Assembly (NCBI GenBank): GCA_000310025.1
Contig: FN648075.1
Location: 361,516-413,142 of the forward strand
Direction: 5' to 3'
DNA length: 51,627 bases
Source: Ectocarpus siliculosus
Taxonomy: Eukaryota; Sar; Phaeophyceae; Ectocarpales; Ectocarpaceae
Shown in pieces: positions 23,579-44,991 of this stretch (positions within the stretch are counted from its first letter, which is position 1; each line of letters opens with the position of its first letter). The notes beneath the pieces are model-generated. The model ran no database searches. It was not told the DNA's origin and worked only from the letters and a program-made list of their open reading frames with translations. Both the position numbers and the translations under genes were made by a program.

Positions 23579-23614
<36 letters not shown>

Positions 23615-24023
23615 TGACGCCGCCACCGCGGCTGCTGCTGCTGCTGCCGCGGTCGTCCTCGCCGCCGCCCACATCGGCCATCCCGGTCGACGTGGTAGAT
23701 GGGGCGATGCTCGCGCCCTCCCTGCTCGAGGGGGCGCCATCGCCAGCGTCGCCCGCGCCCGACTCCTGGGGCGCGGCCGCCGGCTCCGGGTTTACCGTCG
23801 TGTCAAGGTGGAAGCCTCCATCCTCAGGTTCTCCCTCCGCCCTCCCTCCACCATGGCATGACGCACCCTCCCCGCCCTCGTGCTCCCCAGTCGTGAGCTC
23901 CTCGTCCTCCTCTGCAATGGGAGGCAGCGGCTGGGGGTGCGCGGTCGGGGCGGCGGGCACAGATTGCCAGGTGAAGTTGCGAGTGGTGATCGCTTGGCGT
24001 TTTCGTCCAGGATGCGCACGCAA
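21489..24023 (-). pseudogene. Copia reverse transcriptase and RNase H
   Basis: This is one open frame of about 840 codons. An acidic Ser-rich linker comes first, encoded partly by a CAG/CTG trinucleotide run at about 23578-23610. The RT domain follows: WKTNKEGKIEKFKARLVARG, LNHWDVKQAFTHAKLDEDVF, IYGLKQSGRQWG and the catalytic IYADDILVAGS (YADD). RNase H motifs are YVDASYADAEDRRSVSG, SLSSTEAEYIAAGEG, LEDNQGA and KHIDVRYHFIR. The protein ends after HTDMLTKAPF, where the 68-bp terminal repeat begins, so the last residues overlap the presumed LTR. The frame itself is intact; it is called a pseudogene because upstream pol is broken. Confidence 0.92.
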
Positions 24024-24029
24024 TCACGG

Positions 24030-25266
24030 TTTGTGTTGATATCAGGGCCGAGGTAAAAACACTTTTTTGCTTTCGGCTCTGACTTGTGCGTGCGCTTGAC
24101 CTTGTACACGGCGGGTTTGAGGAACGGGTACGTCGCCTCTGGGGGAGGTGGGTGCCCGTGCCACATTTCGTACGGCGATTTCTTGTCCGGGTTGGATGGG
24201 TGGAGGTGCAGTTCAGGGCGCTGCATGCCCAAGCTGTGGCTTCGGCCCAAAGGGAGGGGTAGCTTGGTGCTTCGGGGTAAAGAATTGGCGCTTGTATGCG
24301 GGCGGCTAGTGCTGCATCCTTGATCAGTCCCAGTGCTCTCTCAGCTACACCGTTGTATTCTGGGCTGTATGCGGGGGTGAACTCCTGCTTGATGCAATAC
24401 TGGCGGCACAGCTTTCCGAACTCTCCCTCGAAAAACTCTCCTCCGTTGTCAGACCCCACGACCATGACCTCGGATGGGGCTCCGTCTGCCCTGTTTTCCG
24501 CTAGGAATCTCTCGAATAACTCTGCAGCGTCTGACTTGTTTTTCAAGAAGTAGACGCGGTTCCACCTCGTGCAGTCATCCCTTACGATGAGAGTGTACCA
24601 CTTCCCCCCCAAGCTCTGCACCCTTGCCTTCCCACTCAAATCCACGAAAACTCTCTGCAGTTTCTTAACTGCTCGGGTTGACGTCCTGTTGGGGATGGGC
24701 TTGGATAGCCCCTTTGCCGTCGAGCACCCCATGCACTCCCGGAGCTGGCCCACCAGCGTCACCCCTTGCTGCTTCGCCGTGTTCTTCAGCAGCACCTCGT
24801 GGGAGTGGCCGTGCGCGCAGTGGAAGTCGTTGATGTCAACGGGGGTGCGGTTCGCTTTCGCGTTACCAGAAGCAATTATGGCACAGGCTAGTTCCCTACC
24901 CGACTCTATGCGGTGACCAGTCTGAACGAACAGGTCTCCCCATAGAGGGAAGTACACCGACTCCCCCCCACCAACGAACACCTCCAACTCGTGCTCGTCT
25001 GCGGCTAAGCGGCCCTTGGTTTGTTTCAAGAGGGCTGTGAGGGACACGAGGTTGTAGTTGAGCTCCGGCACATGAGCGACCCGTTTCAACAACAGGTCTG
25101 TGGTCCCAACGCGAGAACCGATGGTCACCCTCACGTCGCCATACCCTACGATGGCGAAGGCTTGCTTCCCTGCGGCGACACTCAAAAAGTCGATCGCACT
25201 CATGGTAGTTTTCGAACGTGTTAGCGCTCGGGAACATGTGGTTGGTTGCGCCAGTATCGGCCACAA
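24030..25266 (-). pseudogene. Copia protease end and integrase, frame-disrupted
   Basis: After the shift, the frame begins around MSAIDFLSVAAGKQ and continues through a GAG-pre-integrase region (HCAHGHSHEVLL; LRECMGCSTAKG). It then enters the integrase core with VFVDLSG, VVGSDNGGEFFEGEFG and AYSPEYNGVAERALGLIKD, which supply the D-D-E catalytic residues. Near 24205 the homology moves to another frame (PYEMWHGHPPPPEATYPF, CFYLGPDINTNRDCVRIL). Near 24000 it moves again to the RT frame. Single-base indels explain this best. Confidence 0.88.
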
Positions 25267-26815
25267 ACCTTTCCTGCCTGGCCTGCTCTACACCCCTTCG
25301 ATCAACGACTCTGTTCCACTCGCCTGTGAAGTCACGGACCACTAGCGCCTCCTCTGCGACGTCCAGTGCGGTAGCGTCCAAGACCGGCAGCTCCACCGCG
25401 AGCACCGCCTGCTCGGACGAGCACGTGCTCTTGTCGTGTTCGTAGCCCAGGCACTTCTCGCATCGCAGGGGCTCGGGCTTGGTACAGGCGGCCGCCTGGT
25501 GACCCTTCTCTCCGCACCGGAAGCAGCGGTTGTGCATGCTACTTGCACCGCCGCCGCCGCCTCCGCCGCTGTTGCCACCACCACCGCCCTTGCTGCCACC
25601 CCCTTTCCCCTTCTGGCCGCCACCACCGCCGCCGCCACCCTTGTTGCGGCCGCCGCTGCTGCGGCCGGGCGCTCCACCCCTGCTGTTACCGTCGCTCGCG
25701 AGGAAAGCATGCTCCGCCTTCCGCTGACCCTTCGGGGCCTTCCTCCCCTCCGGGAGGCTCGCGTGCACCGTGCTCACGATCCTGACGATCTCGCCCCTGT
25801 CCAGCTTCGTCGCCGTCTCCAGCAGGAACTTCGCTTGTTGGTACTCGGGTGGAAGCGAGTCGACGAAGTGTGCGAGGACAAATGGTGTGTCAGCGTTGAG
25901 CCCCTTTTCGCGTAGGCGCATGTATATCTGCTCGAGCTTGCTTAGGTGCTCGATTGGATTGCTGCTGCTGTGTGCCGGGATCGAGAAGCGGGACATCTCT
26001 TTCGTCAGGGCTTGTTTGGATCCCTGCGACTCGGGGTCGTAAACTTTCTCAAGCTCCGTGAGGACCCCCTTCGCCGTCACACAACTACTGACGACCGCTT
26101 TATCGGTTTCTTTCACCACGGCGGTAGTGATGAAGTGGAACGCGGCGAGCCCACGTGCGACCTCGCTCCTAGTATAGCGCACGTCGTTGTAAAGTGTGGA
26201 GGTGGGCATGTTCGGGTCGCCCACGGGGGCATGTCTCTCAGTACTCCCGACGAATAGACCGTCTAGTTCCACGGTCTTAGCGGCCTGGATGGAAGATTTT
26301 CGCCACGTGCTAAATCCGCTGCTGCGGCCCCCCTCAAGGCGAGGGGCCACCACGTTCACTTTCTTCGAGTGACTGAAGCTATCGATGTAATCACCGTTAC
26401 CACGAGTTGCGGGTATCTCACCTGGGGGGTTTAACCCCCTCGCTTCCCCGCGGTCAGCTCCTACGACAGGCCCCACGCTCGCTGGAACCCCGGGACTCGC
26501 TCCCGGTATGTTGTCCCAGCGGCTTTCCCACGGGTGATTTGGCCCATCACGGGCCGTTTCCCGGGAAAATGTCCCGCCGCCCTCTGACGGCAAGGGCTCT
26601 CTCTGGCTTGGGACGGCAGCACCGCCGCCCCTACTGGCATCGCCCGCCACGGCGTCGCCAGGCTCCTTCCTCTTAAGCTCCATTACTATGCTCATCAGCT
26701 GCGATAACTGGCCCTCCAGCCTCGCAATCGCCGGGTCCTCGGCGTGTTGCAGTTGCGTGGCTGAGGTCACTTCCCCCAGCCCTTCGACCGAACCGCTGTC
26801 CGACGCAGTCATCAC
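25215..26815 (-). pseudogene. Copia gag with two zinc knuckles, running into protease
   Basis: The frame starts at ATG 26815 (MMTASDSGSVEGLGEV) and covers a capsid-like region with LSKLEQIYMRLREKGL and DSLPPEYQQAKF, typical of Copia gag (UBN2-like) proteins. A Gly-rich linker leads to CFRCGEKGHQAAAC and CEKCLGYEHDKSTC, both CX2CX4HX4C knuckles that bind RNA. The protease motif FVADTGATNHM follows in the same frame. The frame then goes out of register about 30 codons later, near 25215, within the protease domain. The second, broken Copia gag at 43544-44991 is a homologue with the same two-knuckle layout. Confidence 0.9.
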
Positions 26816-26999
26816 CCGATGCGGCTATCCCTCGAGGGACAAAAAACTCTAGAGTAATTGTCGGCCGTACTCCGCGTACTTATCGGGTATTGTTTGTGTA
26901 GTGTATTAACTTCAGACGGTGAGGCAATGCCCGTACCCAGGGCGCTGTCGTGCTCAGAAAGGAGGAGTGGCAGCAGGGCTGCTGCACACAACAAAAGGG

Positions 27000-27652: not shown

Positions 27653-27920
27653 TGTAGTGGTATGCGCGCGTGATGAAGTCTGGTTGACCCGTGAAGAAGA
27701 ACTCACTTGTTGTTACTCTTGTAGAACAGCAGCAGCAGTAGCTGTTGCCTTGGGTATCGGTAGGAATGACACCAATGGGCACAGGATCCTCTGCACAAGC
27801 AGGGGCTACACGATCCTGTCCCCTGCTTTTTATCCTTCCGCGGAGAGTTACATCTCTCCGCGCCTTCTAGAAGGAACCAAGCTCTTCCATGTTCCGTCTA
27901 CACATCTGAATCCTATAACA
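27653..27920 (-). repeat. Gypsy 3' LTR
   Basis: In the sense (minus) direction it begins TGTTATAGGATTCAGATGTG and ends in CCACTACA, keeping TG...CA ends. It aligns along its length with 41324-41592. The shared block includes a conserved stretch with a CAG/CTG run and a TCCGCGGAGAGTT-type segment. Confidence 0.9.
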
Positions 27921-28481: not shown

Positions 28482-30401
28482 TTAATGGGGGCGCGCAACG
28501 TTATCAGGCAACGAATCAGTCCCGGGGTCACCACGCGACATGTCGACGTTGCGAAGGATCCCCTTAAAAAGGGCACTGCCGCTGTGAACTTGGAGGCACC
28601 AGGATCCGGAGACGGCGGTTTCAGCGGTGGAGTAGCGAACATCAGGAGGGGCGAGCTTGACAGGGCCAGGATCGTCCAAGAAGCGGACGACGTAGAAGTC
28701 GGACGGTAGAGGCGGTCCAGTAATCTTGCCCAACCACCAGAATCCATCGCGAGCTTTGTACCAGAAGAAGGCGCCTGCAGGTAGCGGAGTATTGGCGAAG
28801 CGACGGTCCCAAGTTGAACGAGAGACGAGCGAATAACCCGAAGGCAAAGCTCGCTCCCCTTTAGCGCGCGCCGTCTCGCGGGTGGCCGCACCAATACGCA
28901 TCGCCCGATAGCGACGATTCGTTTGGCGATGTTGATCAGGCGAACCCGTCCAGTACCGGAGAATGTGGGGCTTGGAATGCTGGAGGTCCATCTCACGTTC
29001 CCAAGAAGGACGAAGAAGACCTTTCCAATGCGTTTGGTATAAAACAGCGATGGTGCCACCACGGCCACGAACAGACTGATGGCCACTAATGCGGTCAACC
29101 TCGAGACGTTCGACCGGAGTCGACACGTCGTCTTCCGTAACATGGTAGGGAGGAGATTTATTCGCATAGGAGTTTAGCACATACGGTGTAAGGCCGGCAG
29201 GCAGGAACCGAGGCAAGTCTTCAGTGTCATGCGGATTAGCGCAAGGCTTGCAACGCGCAACTGACACACGGTTTTTCGAGTCCGGACCCGGCAGATCCGA
29301 TGGAAGATCCAAATACAGTAACTTGGAAGCCAGAGGACAACCGTCGGGAGCGTCAGGACACGGACCCACGGCCAAGATCTTGAACGGACCAGTCCAAAGG
29401 AAAGACAACTTAGCCTTGAGGACCTTGTCATCCGTGCCTGAACGAACACCTTGGCGAATGGTAGATTCGGTGTTGTACACCCAAACCCATCCACCGACGG
29501 TGTATGAGGGGACCTTGCGCAAAGCATCCGATAGAGCGGAGTTACGCCGCTCAATCCTCGAAACGGACAGGTTGTGCTGTTCGCGAACTAAATCGTAAGA
29601 ACGACGTTGGCGATCAGCAGCAAGATCGCAATACTCAAGTTGATCGCGATGCAAGCTTTGGTGGCCTCGAGCATATGGATGCTCAAAAACCGTCATCGGC
29701 ATGCATGGCAGTCGGTTCATATGCACCTCGTTGGGCGCCAAACCAGTAGCGGCACTAACCGAATTGTTGTAGGCAAACTCAAAGTGCGGCAGATGAATGT
29801 CCCAATCGTCTTGCCTCTCATTGACGACTATAGCCAACATCTGAGCCATAGTGTGATTTACGCGCTCCACACCCCCATTGCCGTTGGGATGGTAAGAGCT
29901 GGTAGCCACTTTGCGGATAGCCAGACGGGCGTATACAGCCTGCGACAGTTTACAACAAAACTGAGAGCCATTATCAGACAAGAGACTCAAAGGGCAACCC
30001 CATAAAGGGATATACCGATTGACAAGTACATCAGCGGTGCCTTCGGCGGTGAATTCCGCAGCCGTAACCGCGTACATGTCAGCACGGCGGCTGAAACGAT
30101 CAGTGAAAAGCAGAATATATGTGTTTCCGCGCGGTGTCAACGGGAGGGGACCGAAATAATCGACGCTCACCGACACACCAGGGCCCGAAGGCAGCGGAAG
30201 GCACAAAGTAGGCCATCGAGGCGTTTGACGAGATGACTTGCGAGCTTGGCATCGCAAACAATGCCTTACCCACCACTTCGTGCAAACACTCATGCCAACC
30301 CACCAATAGAAACGTTCCAGCATGCTAAGCGTGCGAGCGGCACCGAGGTGGCAGGATGCATCAGCGTGACAGGCTTGCATGATCCACGGACGCATGAGCA
30401 T
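28482..30401 (-). CDS. Gypsy integrase with chromodomain and Tudor-like C-terminus
   Basis: The open frame begins MLMRPWIMQACHADASCH and is in register with the RT/RNase H frame, separated only by the TAG at 30504. It has an HHCC zinc-binding part (HADASCHLG ... CTKWWVRHCLRC) and the DDE core: VDYFGPLPLTPRG, LLSDNGSQFCCKL and NGNGGVERVNHTMAQML. A GPY-like region includes SFLWTGPFKILAVGP. Next comes a chromodomain-like block at about 29120-28940: VERLEVDRISGHQ, VLYQTHWKGLLRPSWERE and ILRYWTG. Last is a Tudor-like block at about 28850-28600: FFWYKARDGFWWLGKITGP, YVVRFLDDPGPVKLAPPDV and GSWCLQ. Such readers are expected to steer integration to marked chromatin. Confidence 0.9.
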   Translation of the reverse strand: MLMRPWIMQACHADASCHLGAARTLSMLERFYWWVGMSVCTKWWVRHCLRCQARKSSRQTPRWPTLCLPLPSGPGVSVSVDYFGPLPLTPRGNTYILLFTDRFSRRADMYAVTAAEFTAEGTADVLVNRYIPLWGCPLSLLSDNGSQFCCKLSQAVYARLAIRKVATSSYHPNGNGGVERVNHTMAQMLAIVVNERQDDWDIHLPHFEFAYNNSVSAATGLAPNEVHMNRLPCMPMTVFEHPYARGHQSLHRDQLEYCDLAADRQRRSYDLVREQHNLSVSRIERRNSALSDALRKVPSYTVGGWVWVYNTESTIRQGVRSGTDDKVLKAKLSFLWTGPFKILAVGPCPDAPDGCPLASKLLYLDLPSDLPGPDSKNRVSVARCKPCANPHDTEDLPRFLPAGLTPYVLNSYANKSPPYHVTEDDVSTPVERLEVDRISGHQSVRGRGGTIAVLYQTHWKGLLRPSWEREMDLQHSKPHILRYWTGSPDQHRQTNRRYRAMRIGAATRETARAKGERALPSGYSLVSRSTWDRRFANTPLPAGAFFWYKARDGFWWLGKITGPPLPSDFYVVRFLDDPGPVKLAPPDVRYSTAETAVSGSWCLQVHSGSALFKGILRNVDMSRGDPGTDSLPDNVARPH

Positions 30402-30503
30402 GGGAACATAAATCCGAATGGGTTCGTCGTTGAGAAGGCGAGCAGCACGCCCGCCAGGACGTGTGGTCGTAGACGACGGGGGCGCTGTTTGCTTGCGAAC
30501 AAG

Positions 30504-33500
30504 CTAGACCAAGCCATCATCGTCAATCTGCAACCGGCCTTTGTTAGACAGGTCACGAATCTCCGACAGAAGAGGTCGACGAGCGGACGGAAGATGATCC
30601 AGGAAATCCGGAGGGAGAGCCGAAGGCCGACCCAGAAGGATGAAACGAATAGCTGCATCACAAACAGGTTCGTTACGTTGCTCGCGAGCCCGATCAGCAT
30701 GCGAGAAACGTTCGACAGACGCCCGGAAGGCTAAATCTGCCGAGGAATGTAAAGCCGCCTCGATAGAAGAGGGAGCCGATTCCTGAGGCTCCGGCTGCAA
30801 TCCACCCGAAGGCAGAGTAGTAGCGGAAACCGAAGACGACGGCGTACGAGTGGTTGAAACCGAACGCGTCGGAGATTCTGAAGAATCGGGAGCAGCAGAA
30901 GACTGCTGGGCAGGAGCAACCGAAGTTGCAGGATGCGTCGAAGACGCAAGATCCCTTCCACGAGCCAGAGGCGTATGAAGGTCTGGGATCGAAGTGTCAG
31001 CACCAGGAGCCGAAACCAACCTGGTCAACACGGGGGGCGTAGTCGATGCTGAAGACGCGGGCGAAGAACGTCGAAACGATCGGGGCGAAGCGGAAATCCG
31101 AGTAGGAGCAGGCGGGTCCTCGGAGAAACCATAATCCACGGGCGGGAGGGGCGTGCCTGCCACAACCGCCGTGCGACGGCGAGTTCGCGTGGAAATCAGT
31201 TGAGTAGGGTCGAGAGTCCGTCGTGATGCTGCAGTCGGCGAGACGGCCGGCGAAGACTTGGGCTCGAGAGCCAAAATGTCCTCCACCGAAGAATGTAAGG
31301 AGCCAGACCAATCGAGGGTCCTGCCACGCAGGCGTCGTATCGAAGGAGACAACCCGCGGGAGTTGTTAGACGGCCAGGGTGCGATGTTGCAGACGCCAGG
31401 CGGAGACGAAAGGCCTGACGGCGAGAGACGTGGACCATGCCGACGGAAGTCGACAAAGTCATCTGTAGAGGGGGCCAGCCCACCCAAGACCGAAGTCGGG
31501 GAAGTGGGGACGAGCCCACCCAAGCCAACACCCACGGCGCGATGGCCAGAAGGCGTAAGGCCACAAGAACGGATGAAGAATACGCTCTCCTCATCGTCAT
31601 CCGGTGTCAAGCGGCTGCGACCAGATCGGTCACATTCCGCCGCATCGATCGGAAGGCGAGAGAGGAAATCAGCGTTGCCATTTGCGGAACCCTTGCGGTA
31701 CTCTAGAGTGTAATTGTAGGCGGTGAGAAATTCAAGCCAACGCTGAACGCGGGCAATGTTCTCCCCCACCTTGGCAAAATGCTCAAGAGATTTGTGGTCG
31801 GTAAAAATGCGAAATTTCGTGCCCCACAAATAACCGCGAAGTCGTTTGATGCACCATACGATGCTACCCGCCTCGAGGTCGAGGGGAGTCCAATGACGTT
31901 CGGAGCCCAAAGTAGCTCGGCTGATGAAAACGATGGGCCGGATGGAGCCATCCGGCTGTTCTTGTTCGAGAGTCCCGCCGAACCCATCGCGACTAGCATC
32001 ACAGTAGAGGCGAAAAGGTCGCGAGCCGTCCGTAACGGCATCCCAATCTGGATAAACCAAGACAGGAGGGTTGGCCAACTCCGACAACAGGACGCGAACA
32101 GCTTGCTCCATGGCAGGGGTGAAGGTAAACGTCGCCTGCTTCTTGAGAAGAGTGGTCAGAGGTCGAATTCGCGTAGCCATGTTGGGAAGGAACTTGCGGT
32201 AGTAGCTGAGGCCGCCGAGAAGAGAGCGAAGTTGTTTAACATCCTTTGGCATGGGCATTTTGGTGAGGGCCGCAACCTTGGCCCCATTAGGCCGAACACC
32301 GTCAGGGGAGATGGTGTGGCCGAGGAAATCCGCTTCGGTAGCGCCAATGGTGGCCTTCGGTGGGGTGAGTTTCAAGTTGTGTGTGCGCAAGCGTTCAAAC
32401 AGAGCGCCCATGGTATCAACATGAGAAGCAGGGTTGTCGTCGAAAACGATCAAATCATCCAAGTACGATGCAACACCGTGGAGATTTTTGATGACTTCGT
32501 TGACCACCTTGCAAAACCACCCAGGGGCTGCCCTGAGGCATCTTCAACCACTCAAAAAGCCCGGAAGACGTCACGAATGCCGTCAAAGGGATTGTATCAC
32601 GGTGAACCGTGATTTGGTGGAACGAAGACTTCATGTCGAAAAGGGAATAGATTCGCCCTTTCAACAGCTTGTCCAAAGTATCATCAACTCGAGGAATCGG
32701 AAGCTGGCTCAAAGCACAAAGCTTGTTGAGCTTGCGACAGTTGACAGTGATGCGAACACCACCAGACTTCTTTGGTATGACTACCAAAGGACTCGAGTAG
32801 GGCGAGGTCGAATGTTGGATCAGACCAGCCGCAAGATATTGATCAAGGATCGCGTCAACTTGTTTCGCCACCGGGGGGTTAACGCGGTATGGACGAGATG
32901 TGACGGGTGCACTGCCTGGAGGAACTGCAAGCTTGAAAGGAAAAAGCGAACAAGCTCCAAAGTCGGTGGGGGAACTCGAGAAGACATCATGATAGTCGCA
33001 CAGGACGTTACCAAGCTGAGTGATGACATCCGGAGTCCAACCCGGACCTTGGAGATCGAAGGAAATCTCACGGAGATGGCAGGGGAGCTTATCCCACACA
33101 CGGGAAAAACTCTGACGTTGTTCGGGCGTCAACCGCTCGAGAAGAGCAGGCGGAGGCGATGAAAGAGAAGCACTGACAGAACCAGGGTCCTCTTGACCGC
33201 TTTGCGACGGCGTGGGTCGCTCATGCAAATTACACACGAAGGGGTCATCAATGCCATGCGTGGCAGACGAATCAATGCCATCTGTCGAAACAGGACCCGG
33301 AACCCAGCTGCCCGAAGCAATGGTGGGATCTTGAGCCGCAGATTGAAGACCATCGCTCAAACTGTGGCGAGACACAGCACTGAGAGGCACGCGAAGAAGG
33401 GGAGCCGAAGCTGTACCCAGAACGTCGCCTGGTTCGAGTGAAGAGATACCCGCGAGCGGGAGTCTTTGGCAACCATTTTGCACAAAATGTTCCTCGGAAG

Positions 33501-33825
33501 AAAGCATAGCACATTGTGGAATCATATCCACGAGATAGTTACCCACGAGGGCTGGAGATCCATCGCTGCATACCAAATTAACCGGAACAAGGCTATGTTC
33601 AGGGTGAAGTTGGACGGAATGTTTCCCAGCGTAGCGAAGTTGGTAGTTACCATCCGTGGAAGACAAATCGTGAGCAAATGCAGTGGCACCGCAACTGCCA
33701 TGCTGAGCCAAAATCACGGTCACCAGGGCGTTTCGCACGCAAAGTGCGGTAAGAGCGGTCGCTAAACCGCATCCAACTGTCTCTTCCAAGGAGCACGTCA
33801 TGATGCATGACACTATCGGGAACAA
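30504..33825 (-). pseudogene. Gypsy reverse transcriptase and RNase H with long Ser/Pro-rich tail
   Basis: The frame 33825-32455 gives the RT N-terminal half: SRPYRVNPPVAKQVDAILDQ, GLIQHSTSPYSSPLVVIPKK, VRITVNCRKLNKLCAL and IYSLFDMKSSFHQI. Near 32535, just after MPQG, the frame changes. It resumes with FCKVVNEVIKNLHGV and YLDDLIVF (catalytic YLDD), then DFLGHTISPDGVRPN and RSLLGGLSYYRKFLPNMATR. RNase H follows: RLYCDASRDGFGGTL, LDLEAGSIVW and IFTDHKSLEHF. An unusual linker of about 390 residues, rich in Ser, Pro and Thr, runs to an in-frame TAG at 30506-30504, beyond which the same frame continues into integrase. Confidence 0.92.
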
Positions 33826-34424
33826 CGTACGCCCAAACAGCGAGAGAGGAAGTAGGAAGGCGCTTGCGAAGAAACTGCACGCTCAAACGGACAATAGTCG
33901 AAGTTTGAAGCGGAGAAGATTCGCCGAAACCTCCCCAACAGCGAGGTTGGGTTTGTTTCTCAGACAACGACGAAGCAGCCGAAGCGGCTTTCATGGATTC
34001 CCACGCAGATGCACTAATGAAAGACTGCGGGGAACCCGTGTCTAAAAGAGCAACACATCCAAACTGAACAGAAGCTGAACCACTATGAGTGAGGATTTGG
34101 GTGGTGAAAGAGTCATCATCGATGGTAACAACACCATCAACCAAATCCGGACCTTGCTCAGGAAGCAAAGAAGAGGAAGAGGATGGCTGAGGGCACCCGG
34201 AAGACACGGCCCAAACAGCGGTGTCATGATCCGATGGAACATTCGCAGCGTATTGTGAAAACGACGCGAATCGTTCAGTCGACGGAGGGGTTGGGGCCAT
34301 CCGAAGACGCTGGTGTGTAGAAGGGCTAACTTCATAGACCGCGTTATGTTGAGACGACGTCGAAACGTGGTCGTTGGGGGGCAGCAAACGAGAGCTGCGC
34401 TCGGGCGGCGGGGCATTGCATCGC
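33650..34424 (-). pseudogene. Gypsy aspartic protease
   Basis: In the frame that carries the second half of NADAR, a linker (SASVQFGCV) leads to ALLDTGSPQSFISASAWE, the retropepsin active-site DTG. TSTIVRLSVQFL and VVPDSVMHHDVLLGRDSW follow, matching the flap and the late DxLLGRD motif of Gypsy proteases. It lies directly downstream of NADAR and upstream of RT, so it would be part of the same polyprotein. Confidence 0.85.
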
Positions 34425-36091
34425 AAAAGACTGCGTACTCGTTGAAGGGCGTTGCCCAACAAATTGAGGCCACGCCATCGAGAGGTGTATTGAGCGTCAG
34501 GATCATCGGCTTGAAGGCCAATGCCGCAAATACGGTCGTAGGGACTAGCTTCGGCAAGGATTTTGTCGCCAGATCCGAGAAGATGCTCGCACAACTCGGA
34601 GTTTTGACTAAATTTTGCGTAAGAGCCAGTGAGCACAATATTTTCGCGCTCGCGTTCCCAAAGAAGTGGGTCGAAACCACGGGACACCGCGGCCAAACTT
34701 CTTGTGCAAGGCAGGATCGGACACGCGCATGATGTGCTGTAAAGCGCCATGGTCGTCGAAAAGACGAGCTTTTTCCGCAGCGAAAAACTGCTCAGCACAC
34801 GAGTATACCACTCCATCGACCACAAAAGTCGACGGTGTCCACTGGGAAAAGGGAGAGAGGGGCTGCCAAAAGAATACCATGTCAGGAGTACAATACTCGT
34901 TAGACGGGTCGAAGACAGCGGGAACTGCAGGAGTCGAAACACCTGGAGCGCGATCAGCCGAAGCTGAGGTGGCAGCCGAAGCTGGTGTAGCCGAAGCGGA
35001 GGCAGCCGAAACGCCCGTATCGTAATTGACGGCATGGACGTCCATGGGGACAGTCTCGGGTATGTCAGAGACCGGCGAAGAATCGACGGGAGCCGAATTG
35101 TTCGCAATAATTGGGCCAGCGACATCACGCTGAGTGCGCCCCAATTCTAAACCTGAAGAAACGCCTCGTAAGGTGTCATTGAACAGGCCGCTTTCGCTAG
35201 GAATGGCCGCCAAGGCCGGGTCGGTTAAAGAACCAAACCGGGGCTTGGTGCTCCTGGCCATTCCTCCGTGACAAGGTGCGCGAGACCGCCGGCTGTTCGG
35301 AGGTCACTACAGGAGGGTCCTCCCGAAGCGGTGGTGTCAACACTGTCGGCGTCGGTCGCGGCGGCCTGGGATGGGGCGCCGGGGGGCGAGCGTGCGTCGG
35401 AAGAGATGGAGCGCTCGAAAACGATCCATGGTCGAAATATCTCGTGGCGGAATCTGATGGTGTTCGGCGGTCAGGACCAAGAGAGAGAACAATGTCATTC
35501 GAAGCCAGGCGAATTTGACCCTGCAACTTGCCGGTTGGAACCAGTTAAGTTAGCTACCGGTGCAACAATCGAGGGCGAACCCTCAACGGAAGCGAGCACA
35601 GACGAGTTGAGCGTATCCAAAGATTCACCCGAGGTAACCAATTCAGGCGATTCCTCTTCGATCGTCCAAAGCGCATGGCTACGGCCGGTCTGATCTGCAG
35701 ACGACGGGGGGAGCGAACGAGCAGTGCCCGACAAACGAGCGGTACTCGATGGCCCCGAAGGTCCTACGAATCTGTTCCCGCACCTAAAGACAGCACTCGC
35801 GCCAGACTGGTTAGTTTCTGACGGAGCGCCAGCCCGAAGAGGCAGAGACGCAGAGGTGGCAGACGATGAGTGCGATGACGAAGGTGGCACGAGAGCATGT
35901 GTCTGGATACCGACCTGATCAACACTAGGGGAAACAACGGATACCGAAGTATGGTTGTTATTGTGCGGCACCGAAGTACCAGAAGGGATAACATTCACCG
36001 AAGTGAGGTTATCGTTGCGTAGGACCGAAGTGCTAGAGGCAACAGTGTGTGACGGCGCGACAGATACCGAAGTATATTGTCGTTGTTGCAT
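34425..36091 (-). pseudogene. NADAR (DUF1768/YbiA-like) domain in the Gypsy polyprotein, with Ser/Thr-rich spacer
   Basis: After a low-complexity spacer (36091-34890, TSVSVxPS-like motifs), the frame starting at 35261 contains MVFFWQPLSPFSQWTPSTF, VVDGVVYSCAEQFFAAEKAR and LFDDHGALQHIM. Near 34680 the match moves by one frame and continues with GFDPLLWERERENIVLTG, AKFSQNSELCEHLLGSGDK, ILAEASPYDRICGIGL and SRWRGLNLLGNAL, reaching about 34425. These blocks are the whole NADAR domain from its FW-x-SxFSxW start to the DRIxGIGL and WRGxNxLG end. The family cleaves N-glycosidic bonds of ribose-containing substrates; members are reported to act on riboflavin intermediates and to remove ADP-ribose from guanine. 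The one-base disruption near 34680 suggests this copy is inactive or misassembled. Confidence 0.85.
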
Positions 36092-37996
36092 AAAACCGAA
36101 GTATTAGGGGCAACAGAGCGTGACACACGAGCGTCTTGTGATGAATGAGACGAAGTCCCCGAAGATGCTGAAGGCGGTCCGGGGGAAGTAGGCGAACCAC
36201 CACCGATGAGTCATCCGCTGCGAGAACGGCCACCATTTTGGAAGTTGCCAGGTTGACGGGCATTGTGATTGGTCGAAACCATGATGCCAGACGAAGGACC
36301 GCTGTGTGCATGTGTTGGTGGTTGATAGAGGGACAGAGCACCAGTGTGGTTGGTGTTGATCGAAGGGTGTTGCTGAGGGTGAGAGTTACTCGCAGAATTT
36401 CCTGGGGCATACCCACTGTTGTGCGATTGTGTCTGATGAGTGTGAGGGGAACTACCACCGTCGGAACGGCGATTACCGGCGTGGTTTCGACGCTGAGAGG
36501 ACGAAGAGGAAGAGCGCTGGTGGCGTCTACCCTAATTGTTTTGGCGGTTGTCCGCACGTTTTCGGCGAAAAGACCGCATACGGCCTTGCCAACGTCTAAA
36601 AGCAGCAGAATCGTCATTGAGGAGGCCCAACTCTGGGTTCAACAACCCACTAGAATTCGTGAACGGTGCAACGCATTGCTTCATGGAATGCTCTTCATCC
36701 GAGCAGTTCAGACAGCGATTCCTGTTTTCGCGGAAGGCTTGCGAGCGAGCCTCTTGTGTCAACAAAGGAGTCCACAAAAAAGGATCATCCGTGTTACGAA
36801 AACTAGAAGTGAGAGCGTATACATCAGACCAATCGGCTTGCAAGGCAGGCCAAGAATTATAGTTACGTGTGAAAGGGTCGGCATCGTGCGATTGTACCGG
36901 CAAAACTACAGGGTGCTGAGCAGAACCTGGTGCCCACTGGCCCGAAGGCGCGGGGGCGCGGTGTTGGGACCGCCGAGGCTGCGAGGAGCCACGCGTCGAA
37001 GACAACGAAAAATAAGATGAACCGACGATAGCCGGGGTTTTATTTGTCGCTAGAGGCGCGAACGCCTCCCACATATCCGCAATCGACGCAAAGGGAGTGA
37101 CGGCCGTGGCCAGAGCACCCGGGTACAAAATCGGAGACAAACTCGGAAACTGCTTGCAGACCGAATGCCGCACTATTTCTAGAACCATGGATACGCTAGG
37201 GGCCAAAGTACGCTCAGAGCCAGTCACAGACGAAACCAACAAATGGAAAGCACGAAGGTAATCCGCGAAAGAAGTACCATCTGCTACGCCAAATTGTTGT
37301 AGCCGCAAAAACGACTCTTGACGGTCGCCGACATCAAATTGCTCTGCAAGATGACGCAACAGCAACTGAAAAGCTTCTGGTCCAGTGGCGCCGCCGTCCA
37401 AGCTTCTCTTCACCTGCTGAAAGTAATTAGTGATGGAGAGGACGAGATCGGCAGTAGAGGGCTTGTCAGGGGTGATTGCACTCAAAAGTTTGTTTTCGAG
37501 GGGTCGTTCCCACCCACGCACGAAATCGGCACCGTGCAACCCATCACTCTGCTCATCACACAACAACAAAATATCGGATAAAGCCGTACGTGTTGTGCGA
37601 AGAAGCTGTTGATAGCCATCGCCCGGCAACAGAGTTGCAGGAAAGGGCATGGTAGCGACACTCTCGACTTTTTTCAAGTTGAGGGTGATGTACGCGCGTT
37701 TCACTGTGGTGACATGAACCGCGCGTGCATGAGCATCGGTCGCATCAATCGTGGCTTGGCGAGCATGTGCGATATTTGAAGAAAGTGGCAAAACACGATC
37801 ATCAACAACAACGGGGGGTGTGACAGCAGCTACCGAAGCAGCAGGGGGAGCATAGTCCGAAGACAACACAACATGCGGAACACCCGGCATAGGTGGTACA
37901 AACGCCGAGGGGGGGGTTGGGGTTCGAAAACCCAGGGTTCTGCACAATGCCTGAATCTACAGCATGGTGAGCGGTAGAAAAAACAGGGGGTGCAGC

Positions 37997-38084
37997 AGTT
38001 TCCGAAGAAACGGGGGGGGGCGAAGCCGGAAGGTTCGAAAACGCAACACGAGTTTCCGAAGAAACGGGGGGGGGCGAAGCCGGA
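37997..38084. repeat. Duplicated ~34-bp segment with 9-G runs
   Basis: Two copies, at about 37997-38031 and 38051-38084, each read GTTTCCGAAGAAAC followed by nine G and CGAAGCCGGA. They lie within gag and encode repeated ASPPPVSSET on the minus strand. Confidence 0.85.
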
Positions 38085-39319
38085 GGAACAAAATCATCAC
38101 GCGAAAAGAAACGAGCACCCGAAGTCGCGTCCATAAGAGACGGAACTACTTGCCTTTGGCGGCCCGAATTGCGGGACAAGCTGGTGTCCGAGTCCGACCC
38201 GGTCCCGCTCTTGCTCTTGGAGCCACGAGCGCCATCCCCGCCACGCTTGGCTACCTTTCTCTCCCGGCTACCACCCACCGAAGAGGACGAAGGCGCCGGG
38301 GGTCGACGAGATGCTCCGGCCGAGCTCCAGCCAAACTCCTCTCCCGAGCTACCAGGACCACTCTCCCGACTCGAACGCGACGGTTGCGCCTGCTTGACAC
38401 GACCCGGCGCCGGCTGCTGGAACCCATAGGAGGCCTCCGAAGACGGGCCGCTGCAGCCAGGGTACACCACGGGAGCAGTGGCGCGGGCGTTGGCCGTCCG
38501 CATCCCAGCGAGGAAACGGCCGGCCAGATCCCGAAGATCCGGACGGGAGGCGTTAGCCACATCCACCGCCTCCTGTATGGTGGCGGCCGCCGGCAACGCG
38601 ATGGCCACTTCCGTGGCCAAGTCCCTGACCGATTGGCTATCCCCAGGAAGGAAGTTGAACTGCTGATATTGTGCCACATCAGCTAGCTTGGCCGGGGTGA
38701 ACCTGAAATCACCAGACTCGAACGTGATAGGGCCACGTCGCGACGACGAGGAGCGGGTGACCGGGCTTGTCGAAGCTGCAGCCGCATACGTTCGAGACGA
38801 AGCGGCAGAGGTGGTCGGTGCAGAAGCAGCTCGCCCGCCTGCTCCCGAGACGCGGGACGACCGCTCCTCACGTTCGCGGAGGTCCTGCTCACGCCGTTTT
38901 CCGGCCTTGCGGCCCGCTTCGACAAGCGCAGTCCTCCTGGCGCCGGTCTGCAGTCAGGGTGGCGGCCAGTTGACTCCGCTGATGTTCGCATTTCTTTTGA
39001 AGCGCCTCGAGATCGATGATTTGCTTCGCGTTAGAAGCGCGCGTCGCTCGGAGGAGCCTGAGCTCCTCCTCTCGGGCGGAAGGAACTCCTCGTCGGCGAG
39101 GTCGTCCTGTGCTTGTCTAGCGGCCGCTCGGTCGGCATCGACGGCGGCGCCGCTCGCCATGCGAACGGCGTCGTCCATGCGGTCGAGCGCGCATCCGCGG
39201 ACATAACGTCCCACAGGGCTTCGGGGACCCACCGCGGGCAGGAGAGAGGTGCAGCCGTGGCCGGAGCCGTGGCCGAAGCCGTGGCCGAAGCCGGGGGTAC
39301 TGCCGAAGCAGGGGTGGCG

Positions 39320-39427
39320 GCCGAAGCCGAGGGCGCCGCCGAAGCAGCGGTGGTGGCCGAAGCCGAGGGTGCCGCCGAAGCAGCGGTGGTGGCCGAAGCC
39401 GAGGGTGCCGCCGAAGCAGCGGTGGTG
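39320..39427. repeat. Three tandem 36-bp repeats in Gypsy gag
   Basis: Near-identical units start at 39320, 39356 and 39392, with a partial fourth at 39428. On the coding (minus) strand each gives 12 residues of the form ATTAASAAPSAS. The period is a multiple of three, so expansion keeps the frame. Confidence 0.9.
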
Positions 39428-41309
39428 GCCGAAGTCGCAGACGCCGCGGGGGGTAGAACCATCTGGACAGGCTCGGCCGGCCGGCCGGTAACTGCAGACC
39501 TTGCTCCGCCACCGGTGGTGGAGTCCCGAAGCGCAGTTGTCGACATCCCAGCAGAAGACGCCGCCTCGGGCTTGACGGTAGGGGAGGTGGCCACCATTGT
39601 AGTACGGCGTAGGATGTCGTAGAGTTGGCTGTTACGGCGCTCTGCGATTTCAAGACGGAACAAGGCATCAGCCGTAGCAGCACGTTCATGCAATGAGGAA
39701 AGCATGGGGGCGGGTGGGGGCACCATGTTAGAAAAAATGAAAGGTGCAGCGGCAGAGGGCACTGCGGAAACAACCGAAGCCGCAGCTAGAGGCGCCGAAG
39801 CAGAAGCTAGCATGGCAAAATCAGTCGAAACTGTAGGCTCGAAACCCGCCGTGGGAACACGTGAATCCGTGAAAAATGCGGGCAGAGGCGCATCTATGGG
39901 CAGAGAAACAGCGGTGTGTACAGCAGTCGAAGCAGCCGGCACAGGGCCCTGTATGATGATAGTGGGGGCGGGGAAGGGAACAGACGACACTGTACGCAGA
40001 GTCGAAACGGTACGCAGAGGCGGAGCTGCAGGAATAATAGCATCGCCAGCAGTCGAAACTGCGGGTAGAGGCGGGGCTAACGGAATGGGCAAAGGTACAC
40101 GTGCAGCAGTCGAAACCGCAGAAACAGATGCACCGGTAGTGGGAACATGAAAGGCATGTGGGGGGGCAGACGGCACAGTACGCAGCGTCGAAACCGCACG
40201 CAAAGGTGGGGCTACAGAGGCAAAAGCACCGCGAACAGTCGAAACTGTGGGTAGAGGCGGAGCTAAGGGAATGGGGGCAAATACACCTGCAGCAGTCGAG
40301 ACCGCAGAAACAGGCATATCAGAAGCAGTCGAAACCGCATATGTAGTCGATACTACTGAAGCTAAAGCATTGGAGGCAAACGAAATTGCCTGTGTGGACG
40401 AAACCACGGAATCAAATGCATGGGAAGCGACCGGGGTAGCCGAAGCTACGGTGGGGAGTGTACCAGAGACGATCGAAATCACCCTTGTAGTCGAAACTAC
40501 GGGAACAGACGGATGTGATGCGGCGGAATCTGCAAACGGTGATGTCACTGAAGCAGATGCACGGCGGTCACGAAGCCGTTGAGCGCGAGCCGCTGCTTGT
40601 ACACGACCGCTACGAGAAGAAAAAGGGGGAATCGCCGGCACTGTATAGTCAAATTGCAACGTGCTGCGAGAAGCCGAGCGACTGGACAAGCGCGGTACTA
40701 CAGGACCAGCAACACGGTCGAAACCGATGTCGGTCCCAAGAGCAGAGTGCTCAACGGTGGATGGGGCGAGAGGAAAATTCGAGTCGACATGTGGTTCACG
40801 AGAGAATTCAGAAAGCTCATCACCAGCAGCCGTCGAGACGGACTGCTGTTGAGTACACCCAAAGGCACAGAGGCAGAAACCGAAGTTCCAGGTGTGGGTG
40901 CTGGCGGTTTGAGGACAGCACCCACGGGGTTTGCGTCGTCCGAAGCCGGCGAGGCGAACCTCTTCCTTGTGTGTTGAGCGCGAAGCCCTGACAAACGAGC
41001 GGCTTCGGCAACAGGGTCAGCGGCGCGAGCACTGTCCGAAGACAGCAGCAGTTGTGTGGTCTGACGACCAGCTGCTGGGGACCCGAAGGTCGCTACGCGG
41101 GGCGACGACACTGGTGAACGCGAACGTTCCGAATGCTCAGGACTGGCCGAAGCAGAGTCCGAAGAGCCGACGCTAGGTTGAGACATACCGATAAGCGAGG
41201 CGAAGCTAAGCTGTGGTTGGTACGAGAGCGCAAAAAACTGCAGCAGCACCCTAAAGCACCACACCGTGCCAAGACACACAACCAACCCAGACAACACCGT
41301 ACGAATAAG

Positions 41310-41323: not shown

Positions 41324-41592
41324 TGTGGTGGTATGCACGCGTGATGAAGTCTGGTTGACCCGTGAAGAAGAACTCACTTGTTGTTACTCTTGTAGAACAG
41401 CAGCAGCAGTAGCTGTTGCCTTGGGTATCGGTAGGAATGACACCAAGGGGCGCAGGATCCTCAATACAAGCAGGGCGGGCTACTAGATCCTGTCCCCTGT
41501 TTTATCCTTCCGCGGGGAGTTACATCTCTCTGCGCCTTCTAGAAGGAACCATTCTCTTCTTTGTTCCGTCTACACATCTGAATCCTGTAACA
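41324..41592 (-). repeat. Gypsy 5' LTR
   Basis: In the sense direction it begins TGTTACAGGATTCAGATGTG and ends CCACCACA. It is the partner of 27653-27920, with scattered differences. It should carry the element's promoter and transcription start. Confidence 0.9.
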
Positions 41593-41604
41593 GTTTACAT
41601 CGCG

Positions 41605-41932
41605 TCCATGGAAGTGAGATCACGGACTTCCATGAAAGCTCTTTGGAATGGCATGAGGTAGCTTCCATGGAAGTCCACAATGGTTTACATCGCTTCCATG
41701 GAAGTCGTCGACGGACATTTATTTCCATGGAAGTCATCGAACGAGCTTCCATGGAAGTATATTGCGTCCATCCAACTTCCATGGAAGTAACCTCCGCAAG
41801 ACTTCCATGGAAGCTGTCGAAAAAGTCTGCGCGTGCTTCCATGGAAGTCTTGCCATCTTCGACCAGCTTCCGTGGAAGTTGATTTCCACCGCTGTCACCA
41901 TGAAACTTCTTGAAGTCAGCTTCCATGAAAGT
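41605..41932. repeat. Cluster of ~11 copies of the palindrome ACTTCCATGGAAGT
   Basis: Full or near copies begin at about 41605, 41626, 41661, 41692, 41721, 41745, 41775, 41801, 41835, 41866 and 41919, spaced 21-53 bp and mostly 24-35 bp. The core CTTCCATGGAAG is self-complementary and the sequences between copies differ. A longer shared block, GTTTACATCGC plus the palindrome, occurs at 41593 and 41683. The cluster starts 13 bp outside the Gypsy 5' LTR. Reading frames through it on both strands show repeated SMEV or FHGS residues, an effect of the repeat and not evidence for a protein. Confidence 0.95.
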
Positions 41933-42721
41933 GTTTCTGCTCGACGCCACGCCTTATTATGTGGTAGACATTTTCGGCCGGCCCGGTATCCATGGGAAAA
42001 TCAGGAAATTTTCCACGCAAGTACTTCACGTCCCGCCAGTTTCCATGTCGACATCATCTCCGAAGACTCTTGAGTATATTATTACGGTGCAGGGTGTGCA
42101 CGTCGCTCTCTCTGTGATGTCGAGATCAGCTTTGATGAGTCGTGATACCTGGATGTTGCTGGCTCTGCACCTCCACGGCATCTGGCAATAGGTGGCATTC
42201 GTCCCATATTGGTGTGGGGTGAACCGCCTTTTAGGTGAAAGTGGAGGAAGCGCGAGGTGAAGTGGTGGAAGTGGTGGAACTATTGGAAGTCAACTAGCTT
42301 CCTCTGAAAAGTGGGAACAGTTGGTGTTTGTCAATAGTGTCATGTGGAACGCCTTAGGTCGAAGTCATGGCAGCGCCTGTCTGTGTAAATTATCTGGATA
42401 TCGTGGAAGTGAAACAACTCTTCCATGTAAACTCGCCTACGGAGGAACTTCCCTTATAGTCTCAGGTGGAGAGCTTTTGGTGGAAGTCGCGGCAGCGCTT
42501 GGCGAAACAGCACGGAAGACTTAACCACTGAAGACTGGCGGTGCCCGCGTTATTTTATTCACCACCTGTAATCGGCATCATTGTAACGGCTCCACGTATG
42601 ACCGTCCACGGCCTCCTTCGGTACACAGTCGACACCAGACAGTACTCGTGTTCCGTACCTACCTGTCGTATCCGCCCCCGCTTAGTTGGATTCGGGCTCC
42701 AACACAATCTTATATATGGAT
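41933..42721. other. Non-coding region between palindrome clusters
   Basis: No gene was seen. Loose half-sites related to the clusters occur (TGGAAGT at about 42256-42300, 42404-42440 and 42479-42490), some within longer GTGGAAGTGGTGGAA-like runs. These may be decayed copies of the same repeat. Confidence 0.4.
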
Positions 42722-43503: not shown

Positions 43504-44991
43504 ACACTCTAGAGTGTATCCCTCGAGGGAACCCGTGCTGGAGATGAGTGGCGCCGATGTTGCAGCATCAGAGGCTGCCGACGTCACCCCACTAGTACGC
43601 AGGGCAGGGTTGACACCCTGGAGAGCAAAGTTTCAGGCCTGACGGACGAGGTACAGCAGCTGGCAGGGCTGCTCCGAGCCGCCCTCGGAAAGTTAGACAA
43701 GGAGGGGGAGTCCGGCGGCGCTGGGGTGGGCGCTGTCGTCACGGGCACTACGTCCACCGGCGGTGCCCAGGAGGGGGCACCGCAGAACGAGGGAATCACG
43801 CCGCCCTCAGACCCGGCGGTTGGGCCGGGTGGCGGGCGTGACAGGGGATCGTTCCCCCAAGGTGAGACAACCGAGACATACGGCGGTGGTACTGACGGTT
43901 TTGGCGGACTCGTCGGAGAAGGAGACGGTTTTCACCAGAACCCGTATAGCAAAATGCGTGTGTCAGTGCACGCACCGCGCCTCGAAGGCGGCCAGGGATA
44001 CTACTCGTGGAGGAGGGCCTTTATCCAGGCTGCAAAACCGGTAGACATGGACGGTCAGTTCGTAGGGGGCATGGAACGCCAGCCGGACGTCGGGGACATG
44101 AATAAACCCAAAGCTACGCTGCTGGCAGAGGGGTACTCCGAGGCATAGATACACCGCAGCCTCCAAGCTTTTCACTTTCTGTCCTCGGCCCTGGTGAGGG
44201 AGCCAGACAAGGTCGTCTTCGGGAGATGTGTGACGCCGCAGCAGGCGTTGGACGAACTCCACAAGGTGCACAACCCGGAATCGCAGGTCGCCACGCAGGA
44301 GTTGCTCAGCAAGTTTCAGAACTTCGCAATGCCGGCCGACAAAAACCCTACTGAATCGCTTATCGCCATGGAGCAACTCGCAAGTCGTCTGAACGAGAGG
44401 GGGGTCAAAGTCGAGGCCCCGTACGTGCTGTCGCTCTTCCTTTCGGCCTTACCAGCCGAGTACGACCATGCTAAACTGACTCTGCAGTCCGCCCCGACTC
44501 TGGACCAGGGAGAGGTCATCAGAGTGGTGGGCTCCCAGCACTCCAGCATCAGGCAGGGGAAGAACCATCGGAACGGCAACCGCAACAATCACAAGGCGTC
44601 TGAGCAGGGATTACTCGTGAGCACCGACAATGGCGCCGGCGGAAAAGCTGGTCGCAACCGCGGCCGTGGGGGACGCGGCGGCGGCGGCAACGGCGGAAAT
44701 AACGGCAACGGCAACGGCAACGGCAACGGCGTTGGAGACGGTCGCAGTGACGGCGGCCGCCGCAGGGGCCGGTGCTACCGGTGCAACAGGCGAGGGCACC
44801 AGTCGGTCTCGTGCACTACCCCCATCGCCAACTTCTTGACCCAGTGCGAAGTCTGCGACGGGTATGGACACGATAAGAGCAAGTGCCCGTCGGCGAAGGG
44901 TGAGGAGGAGGCGAAGGGCGAGACGGGAGTCATGGCGGTTGTGGTGGCGAGCGATGACGAGGAGCTGGATGCGGCACGTGAGGCGTTGTAA
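43504..44991 (+). mobile_element. Fragment of a second Copia element (leader plus gag)
   Basis: The leader has the same two palindromes as the first Copia element: ACTCTAGAGT (43506-43515) and TCCCTCGAGGGA (43519-43530). A gag reading frame follows with no protease or pol behind it. Orientation is opposite to the first copy, and the proteins are related but clearly diverged, so these are different subfamilies. Confidence 0.75.
43544..44991 (+). pseudogene. Copia gag, frameshifted and with a premature stop
   Basis: ATG at 43544 (MSGADVAASEAADVTP). The frame must change near 43605 to continue into the coiled-coil-like VDTLESKVSGLTDEVQQLAG. An internal TAG at 44146-44148 interrupts the capsid region where the first Copia gag reads through. 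After it, LQAFHFLSSALVREPDKVVF, LNERGVKVEAPYVLSLFLSA and EYDHAKLTLQSAPTLDQGEV match the first copy's gag. A Gly/Asn-rich basic linker and two zinc knuckles follow, CYRCNRRGHQSVSC and CEVCDGYGHDKSKC. The frame stops at 44991 soon after, without the protease motif. It is a dead or truncated copy. Confidence 0.85.

Follow-up and report, generated by a model that had tools for sequence, protein, structure and literature searches.

A selected NADAR domain in a Ty3/Gypsy retrotransposon lineage of Ectocarpus and its probable translation across a gag-pol UGA codon

A long terminal repeat (LTR) retrotransposon of the Ty3/Gypsy type is located on the minus strand of a 51,627-nucleotide stretch of the genome of the brown alga Ectocarpus siliculosus (assembly GCA_000310025.1, contig FN648075.1, positions 361,516 to 413,142), which is called the window in the following. 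Between gag and protease this element encodes a NADAR domain. The data support this domain as a genuine and selected part of the retrotransposon lineage; it probably benefits the element and is probably made as a Gag-Pol product by readthrough of a UGA-C stop. NADAR in an Ectocarpus Gypsy lineage is already published and the core finding is, thus, not new. According to the available passages of Dinatale et al. (2025; PMC12477816), one Ectocarpus Gypsy lineage (e.g., Gypsy-12_Ec32) carries a YbiA-family NADAR at the N-terminus of Pol, as do the window element and the long copies described below, and the window element is a decayed copy of this published type, matched on domain arrangement. Among the paper titles listed in literature searches, no further one pointed to NADAR in such retroelements. 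Added here are the conservation of the pocket, selection, co-inheritance with the reverse transcriptase (RT), the UGA-C junction, and other carriers; the passages of PMC12477816 at hand contain no catalytic-residue counts, NADAR ratios of nonsynonymous to synonymous substitution rates (dN/dS), or RT congruence.

Identity and Genomic Distribution of the Domain

A preliminary description of the window had named five NADAR motifs, all of which were found on the minus strand, namely FSQWTPSTF (34824-34850), CAEQFFAAEKARLF (34758-34799), AKFSQNSELCEHLL (34577-34618), EASPYDRICGIGL (34514-34552), and RWRGLNLLGNAL (34445-34480). As had been claimed, they lie between gag and protease in one orientation, with a CCHC knuckle upstream and a DTG motif downstream. 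When the two pieces of the domain are read separately, the NADAR (DUF1768) profile PF08719 gives 43.4 bits (profile positions 1-82) in the open frame 34608-35303 and 89.2 bits (71-163) in 33647-35146, both halves being above the cut-off of 35.1 bits.

The genome searched comprises 189 Mb in 492 contigs. The NADAR search returned 230 candidates, and each of the 150 that were scored is a match; the search for related RTs returned 511 candidates, of which 150 were scored, giving 152 matches with 150 listed. Pairing of the 150 NADARs with the 150 RTs placed at least 122 NADARs upstream of an RT and at least 122 RTs downstream of a NADAR, at a median gap of 1,642 bp; 122 is a lower bound, because either list holds 150 matches. 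Other Gypsy copies with NADAR at similar spacing, which the preliminary description had asked for, are therefore abundant. Four loci contain intron-free pol frames of 2,015-2,577 amino acids with NADAR, RT, RNase H, and integrase in a single frame, which argues against the insertion of a host gene. PF08719 scores 148-157 bits in three of these frames and 88 bits in the fourth (L030), where the core of the domain is shifted.

The comparisons below are based on 33 rows of NADAR loci from 32 distinct places (L003 and L009 being identical), which comprise the top-scoring hits (L001-L010), long open frames (L011-L030), and others (L035-L037) and are not a random sample. By similarity these rows are grouped into families A-F. 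The window copy, L040, L041, and L043, with a split NADAR and broken frames, were left out before residues were counted.

At 28 RT places there is no listed NADAR. Six were inspected, and three of them hold NADAR pieces in broken frames. Of the three without NADAR, one shows neither a gag nor a pol match in a further 3.5 kb upstream and for this reason looks 5'-truncated; the other two have no pol match in 1.4 kb. On these grounds a NADAR-free sister lineage was rejected. Spread of a broken NADAR, as judged by a shared frame break, was rejected as well: C394 has the same split, yet it is 99.7% identical to the window over 1,802 columns. The outer flank of the window element is likewise shared by C394, and the opposite flank has a match of about 100% in C380; because element and flanks are nearly identical, the two look like haplotigs of one locus. 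Separately, NADAR matches were noted inside open frames of 10,887 amino acids (C3:3913787) and 6,365 amino acids (C489:435177), possibly masked or gap sequence or an oddity.

Pocket Residues and Fold

The pocket residues were taken from the contacts given for the Phytophthora NADAR in the accessible part of PMC11543638 and were mapped via an alignment with structure 8bau. E43, K50, K75, G78, R79, V81, W89, R93, E125, D130, and W133 are identical in 31 of the 33 rows, while the middle segment is shifted in the two exceptions, L030 and L035; L001 and L036, which are among the 31, have one stop inside the domain. The position of Y84 is occupied by Phe in the same 31 rows, and that of D86 is variable. 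Glu at the position of E125 is the mark of the YbiA subfamily, with Asp in BC4488 and His in phage (PMC11543638, PMC11125620; both in part). It is present in 33/33 rows and also in the window copy (EASPYD), which assigns the element NADARs to the YbiA subfamily. They do not correspond to the DarT1-associated (BC4488) antitoxin type, since Glu is found where Asp is expected and the genome gave no DarT match.

A YbiA-like fold is predicted from a modelled relative, P0002, rather than from the window copy. Its AlphaFold model (pLDDT 90.6) matches 8bau (E 1.6e-12) and YbiA 2b3w (E 7.3e-8), the sole PDB matches at E < 0.001. In fold, E125-type Glu, and ADP-ribose-binding residues the element NADAR is like those of Phytophthora nicotianae (8bau), E. 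coli (YbiA, 2b3w), and the myxobacterial YbiA of the YarT pair. Unlike these YbiA-subfamily proteins it sits in a retroelement polyprotein, and no ART domain is among its Pfam hits.

Selection and Co-inheritance

Pairwise dN/dS was determined according to NG86. For the pair L015-L029 it is 0.056 in NADAR versus 0.036 in RT, with 0.022 in RNase H, 0.078 in the protease region, 0.16 in the linker between RNase H and integrase, and 0.55 in the linker preceding NADAR; these values are rough, because dS is 1.7-3.0 (1.0 in the pre-NADAR linker). In four more distant pairs, the ratio of nonsynonymous to synonymous proportions (pN/pS) of NADAR (0.27-0.39) is close to that of RT (0.27-0.40), RNase H and integrase being lower (0.17-0.29). 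The close pairs L012-L013 (NADAR 0.15, RT 0.31) and L011-L025 (NADAR 1.22, on very few changes) are uninformative or mixed. Between families, L030 aside, identity amounts to 58-68% in NADAR (79-80% for C-D) and 57-69% in RT (90-91%), compared with 24-31% in the linker from the gag stop to NADAR (41-43%) and 45-52% in the protease region (68-69%). Low dN/dS together with the conserved catalytic and ADP-ribose-binding residues of the sister copies agrees with the earlier suggestion that the domain was under selection, for which a comparison of NADAR with RT had been proposed as the check.

With the NADAR portion of a complete pol as the query, 358 candidates yielded six proteins, of which P0122, P0123, and P0124 are of the same kind as the Ectocarpus elements. 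Trees of NADAR and RT recover the same groups (B+F, A+P0122, and C+D+P0124), with P0123 unplaced by RT and family F represented by different copies in the two trees; this agreement fits a single capture before the lineage split. In a quick tree of 92 rows, the 17 rows of brown-algal-type NADARs make up one side of a branch with an SH-aLRT value of 94. The nearest named bacterial relatives, which include Myxococcota and Planctomycetes, have 57-59% identity (Planctomycetes, Nannocystis, Polyangia), and unnamed proteins reach up to 61%. A phage or viral origin was rejected, the best 80 of 457 viral loci reaching 51% identity.

The gag-pol Junction

Going upstream from NADAR, the first stop met in frame is a TGA with a C behind it in 16 of the 20 long copies; these TGAs occupy homologous positions in families A (2 copies), B (10), C (3), and D (1). 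The remaining long copies have another stop in the linker (L016, L019, L030) or are cut by the contig end (L023). Over all rows, TGA-C is the first upstream stop in 21 of 33. Of the 16 TGA-C copies, 15 have the gag knuckle in the pol frame, 100, 161, or 167 codons ahead of the TGA, and 13 of these 15 show no further stop in between. Of the gag-NADAR-protease-RT copies, for which a search had been recommended, those of families A-C have gag in the pol frame one stop upstream. Because the lengths of the gag tails and of the linkers (mostly 295, 383, or 438 codons) vary between families A-C and the frame is kept nevertheless, readthrough is the best explanation. Since NADAR is placed past the gag stop and before the protease, it would probably be made by readthrough alone in open copies.

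It is unlikely that the gag-pol UGA is not read through, and that pol is instead expressed from a separate start or a spliced RNA, the shared frame being coincidental. Such expression would accommodate the 12 of 33 rows that lack this TGA as the nearest stop ahead of NADAR, many of which are short or decayed, but in families A, B, and C gag knuckle, UGA-C, and pol would then have to share a frame by coincidence despite different tail and linker lengths. By eye, the RNA downstream of the stop has no single shared fold. In the main text of PMC12477816, none of the terms readthrough, read-through, stop codon, frameshift, UGA, or recoding occurs. A UGA stop between gag and pol, with a potential pseudoknot 3' of the stop, is also described for Tca2 of Candida albicans in the beginning of the abstract of PMC2194720, where NADAR is not mentioned.

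Proposed Function

Characterized NADARs act on DNA and RNA by removing ADP-ribose from guanine (PMC11543638, PMC11833690), and, among the families tested, they are the sole one to reverse ADP-ribosylation of guanosine in RNA (PMC11833690), as stated in the portions of these papers available. The following scenario, for which belief and doubt are about evenly balanced, is proposed for the element: a captured bacterial-type guanine-ADP-ribosyl hydrolase of the YbiA subfamily would be delivered by Gag-Pol readthrough and would act on the element's RNA or cDNA. The ancestor of the lineage would have captured the domain, which would have been inherited together with RT ever since. Ribosomes would read through the UGA-C stop into Gag-Pol, and NADAR would then be packaged with RT. 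By analogy with characterized NADARs it would hydrolyze ADP-ribose from guanine bases, ADP-ribosyl-guanine being the substrate predicted from the pocket residues. Inside the particle, the enzyme would act on RNA or cDNA of the element itself, in which an adduct on guanine could bring reverse transcription to a halt. In this way the domain might strip ADP-ribosylation as a counter-defence, as the preliminary description had suggested.

Several observations weigh against this scenario or its parts. Readthrough is deduced from frame and sequence context; in the single family D copy, none of the frames on the strand of the element contains a gag knuckle, and the TGA-C junction was not seen in the copies of families E and F (other stops, decayed or short). 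In L030, pol is open over 2,346 amino acids although the NADAR core is frame-shifted, and in L030 and L035 alike the core shifts out of frame and back within a surrounding pol frame that is still open. The residue counts come from top-scoring hits or long open frames, to the exclusion of broken-frame copies. Among between-family pairs, C-D alone has finite dS for NADAR and RT (2.9 and 1.7, near saturation), and its pN/pS is 0.20 in NADAR versus 0.09 in RT, i.e., NADAR is less constrained (protease region, 0.27). Regarding enzymes that would write the modification, searches of the genome gave no match for DarT (control positive in 1 of 14 genomes) or for Tpt1/KptA (control positive in 3 of 14), and the PARP search returned four short pieces of 26-33 bits. 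Finally, NCBIfam labels the domain as riboflavin biosynthesis intermediates N-glycosidase (TIGR02464), with 151 bits for P0001 at a cut-off of 73.7; the window pieces, at 68.8 and 49.1 bits, stay under it. The Macro search yielded one exon. The ARTC search gave no signal in any control genome either and is uninformative. A writer may be overlooked, because intron-rich genes are missed by six-frame searches.

A minor though serious option is that NADAR acts, for instance in RNA processing, on a different ADP-ribose- or NAD-linked group carried by RNA or proteins of the element. The conserved pocket is compatible with any ADP-ribose-linked substrate. Processing of the RNA intermediate is suggested by the authors of PMC12477816 in the passages available, and the part of PMC11125620 at hand links SNA-3 of C. 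elegans, a protein with three NADAR domains, to trans-splicing.

The main rival on the substrate is a retained riboflavin-pathway activity, that is, an N-glycosidase acting on reactive riboflavin intermediates that would be useful to the host or neutral for the element. The TIGR02464 score would agree with this; the name leaves the substrate undecided, however, because members of the YbiA subfamily also hydrolyze ADP-ribosyl-guanine. Residues for contacts to the pyrophosphate and the distal ribose of ADP-ribose are conserved, and there is no clear reason why riboflavin activity should be tied to Gag-Pol throughout the lineage. This explanation is considered improbable. Similarly low is the probability that the domain has no catalytic role and is kept just for Gag-Pol folding, as a structural or nucleic-acid-binding module or as linker filler. 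L030, with its long open pol frame around a scrambled NADAR core, is what such a role would allow, whereas the identity of eleven pocket residues in 31/33 rows from families with diverged NADARs, and a pre-NADAR linker far less conserved than NADAR itself, contradict it. Chance insertion of a host gene or bacterial contaminant into a single Gypsy copy can practically be dismissed in view of the copy number in several families, the RT pairing, and the agreement of the NADAR and RT trees.

Other Carriers and Implications

As to NADAR in other retroelements, the available passages of PMC12477816 also report oyster Tx1 LINEs with NADARs in ORF1, hence in another class and at another position. The accessible part of an accessory-domain review (PMC6338049) does not mention NADAR. 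A captured nucleic-acid-modifying enzyme is also found in the cytosine-methyltransferase retrotransposons of the Gypsy and DIRS types, with purifying selection for a Gypsy set (PMC5890265, in part); there the activity is methylation and not removal of ADP-ribose, and NADAR or DUF1768 is absent from the main text.

The other three proteins found with the NADAR portion of a pol as the query differ from the brown-algal type. P0125, from a 22-kb contig, is a Gypsy-like pol in the order protease-RT-RNase H-(macro-like)-NADAR-integrase. In comparison with P0124, it has 22% identity in RT-RNase H and 32% in NADAR, a weak integrase match (E 4e-4), and a different domain order. By eye it keeps E43, K50, E125, and D130 but not R79 and W133. 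Its macrodomain is just suggestive, because 19.2 bits is below the cut-off of 22 and the best PDB sequence match has an E-value of 0.71; possibly, two ADP-ribose erasers are present in this retroelement. With P0125 as the query, only the protein itself was recovered. P0126 (3,333 amino acids) contains NADAR and a C5 methylase, and P0127 (2,839 amino acids) contains NADAR and RT; the two align significantly by BLAST over NADAR alone, and by eye P0127 keeps the Glu of E125 whereas P0126 does not. An SPPCQ motif in P0127, noted by eye, hints at a methylase there, too. The trees speak neither for nor against a separate origin of the NADARs of P0125-P0127: the approximately unbiased (AU) test does not reject joining with the brown-algal clade (P0125, p 0.82; P0126, p 0.85), and trees constrained in this way are likelier than the free tree.

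The candidate carriers of NADAR are thus the brown-algal Gypsy lineage, P0125, P0126, and P0127, with the oyster Tx1 LINEs of PMC12477816 as a fifth. It is conceivable, albeit rather doubtful, that unrelated retroelements repeatedly captured ADP-ribose erasers against an unrecognized eukaryotic guanine ADP-ribosylation of RNA or cDNA. If the domain has the activity suggested by its pocket, this would point to reversible ADP-ribosylation of nucleic acids as a battleground between hosts and retroelements in eukaryotes, a group in which hardly any writers of the guanine modification are known. With many native NADARs in one genome, signs of selection, and predicted delivery by Gag-Pol readthrough, the lineage offers a test system.

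Architecture and Decay of the Window Element

LTRs and the order gag-protease-RT-RNase H-integrase identify the window element as Ty3/Gypsy, gag and protease being recognized from the CCHC and DTG motifs alone (Table 1). The LTRs differ at 16 of 266 aligned positions (Kimura two-parameter distance, K2P, 0.063). No target-site duplication is present, the 5-base flanks ATTAT and GTTTA being mismatched; old or rearranged copies may lack such a duplication. The junction is 96.9% identical to that of L015 over 325 columns (blastn). The reading frame changes from 0 at the gag knuckle to 1 in the first NADAR half, to 2 in the second half and the protease, and back to 1 in the RT, RNase H, and integrase motifs. 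The break within NADAR is genuine and is one among several in this copy. The tblastn span of the C-terminal NADAR half (34409-34786) overlaps the first half; the start of the C-terminal half was set at the motif LLWERERENIV. The active-site Trp corresponding to W133 of the Phytophthora NADAR, a pyrophosphate contact, is replaced in the window copy and is Trp in all 33 other rows. A C-terminal chromodomain scores 13 bits or is not detected in the other pol frames.

Table 1. Features of the Ty3/Gypsy element in the window.
Feature	Position	Strand	Remarks
5' LTR	41324..41592	-	269 bp, TGT...ACA; direct repeats D2/D3
gag open frame	36532..37956	-	ORF; CCHC zinc knuckle CLNCSDEEHSMKQC at 36673-36714; no Pfam hit
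TGA then C, gag-pol junction	36211..36213	-	homologous to in-frame TGA of other copies
NADAR, N-terminal half, frame 1	34665..34889	-	PF08719 profile 1-82; tblastn span
NADAR, C-terminal half, frame 2	34409..34666	-	PF08719 profile 71-163; W133 equivalent is Cys
Aspartic protease DTG motif LLDTGSPQSF	34019..34048	-	motif by eye; no Pfam protease hit
Reverse transcriptase, split over two frames	32310..32778	-	PF00078 in two ORFs
RNase H	31716..32024	-	PF17917, 106.8 bits
Integrase H2C2 zinc-binding domain and rve core	29886..30407	-	PF17921, 49.8 bits; PF00665, 35.4 bits
Chromodomain-like stretch, end of Pol	28950..29102	-	PF00385, 15.3 bits, below cut-off 25.1
3' LTR	27653..27920	-	268 bp, TGT...ACA; direct repeats D2/D3; 90-98% LTR matches elsewhere in genome

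Upstream of gag, about 3 kb of the minus strand (37802-41016) is covered by open frames rich in Ala, Ser, and Pro, the two longest of which had no Pfam match; an 18/36-bp minisatellite is located at 39253-39434. By eye, open frames on the minus strand at 21489-26824 resemble Ty1/Copia gag and pol (zinc knuckle, integrase, RT), and those on the plus strand at 43513-44991 resemble a gag bearing a zinc knuckle. The sequence outside the 5' LTR, at 41593-42600, is part of a repeat to which several further contigs have long matches, at roughly 80-99% identity.
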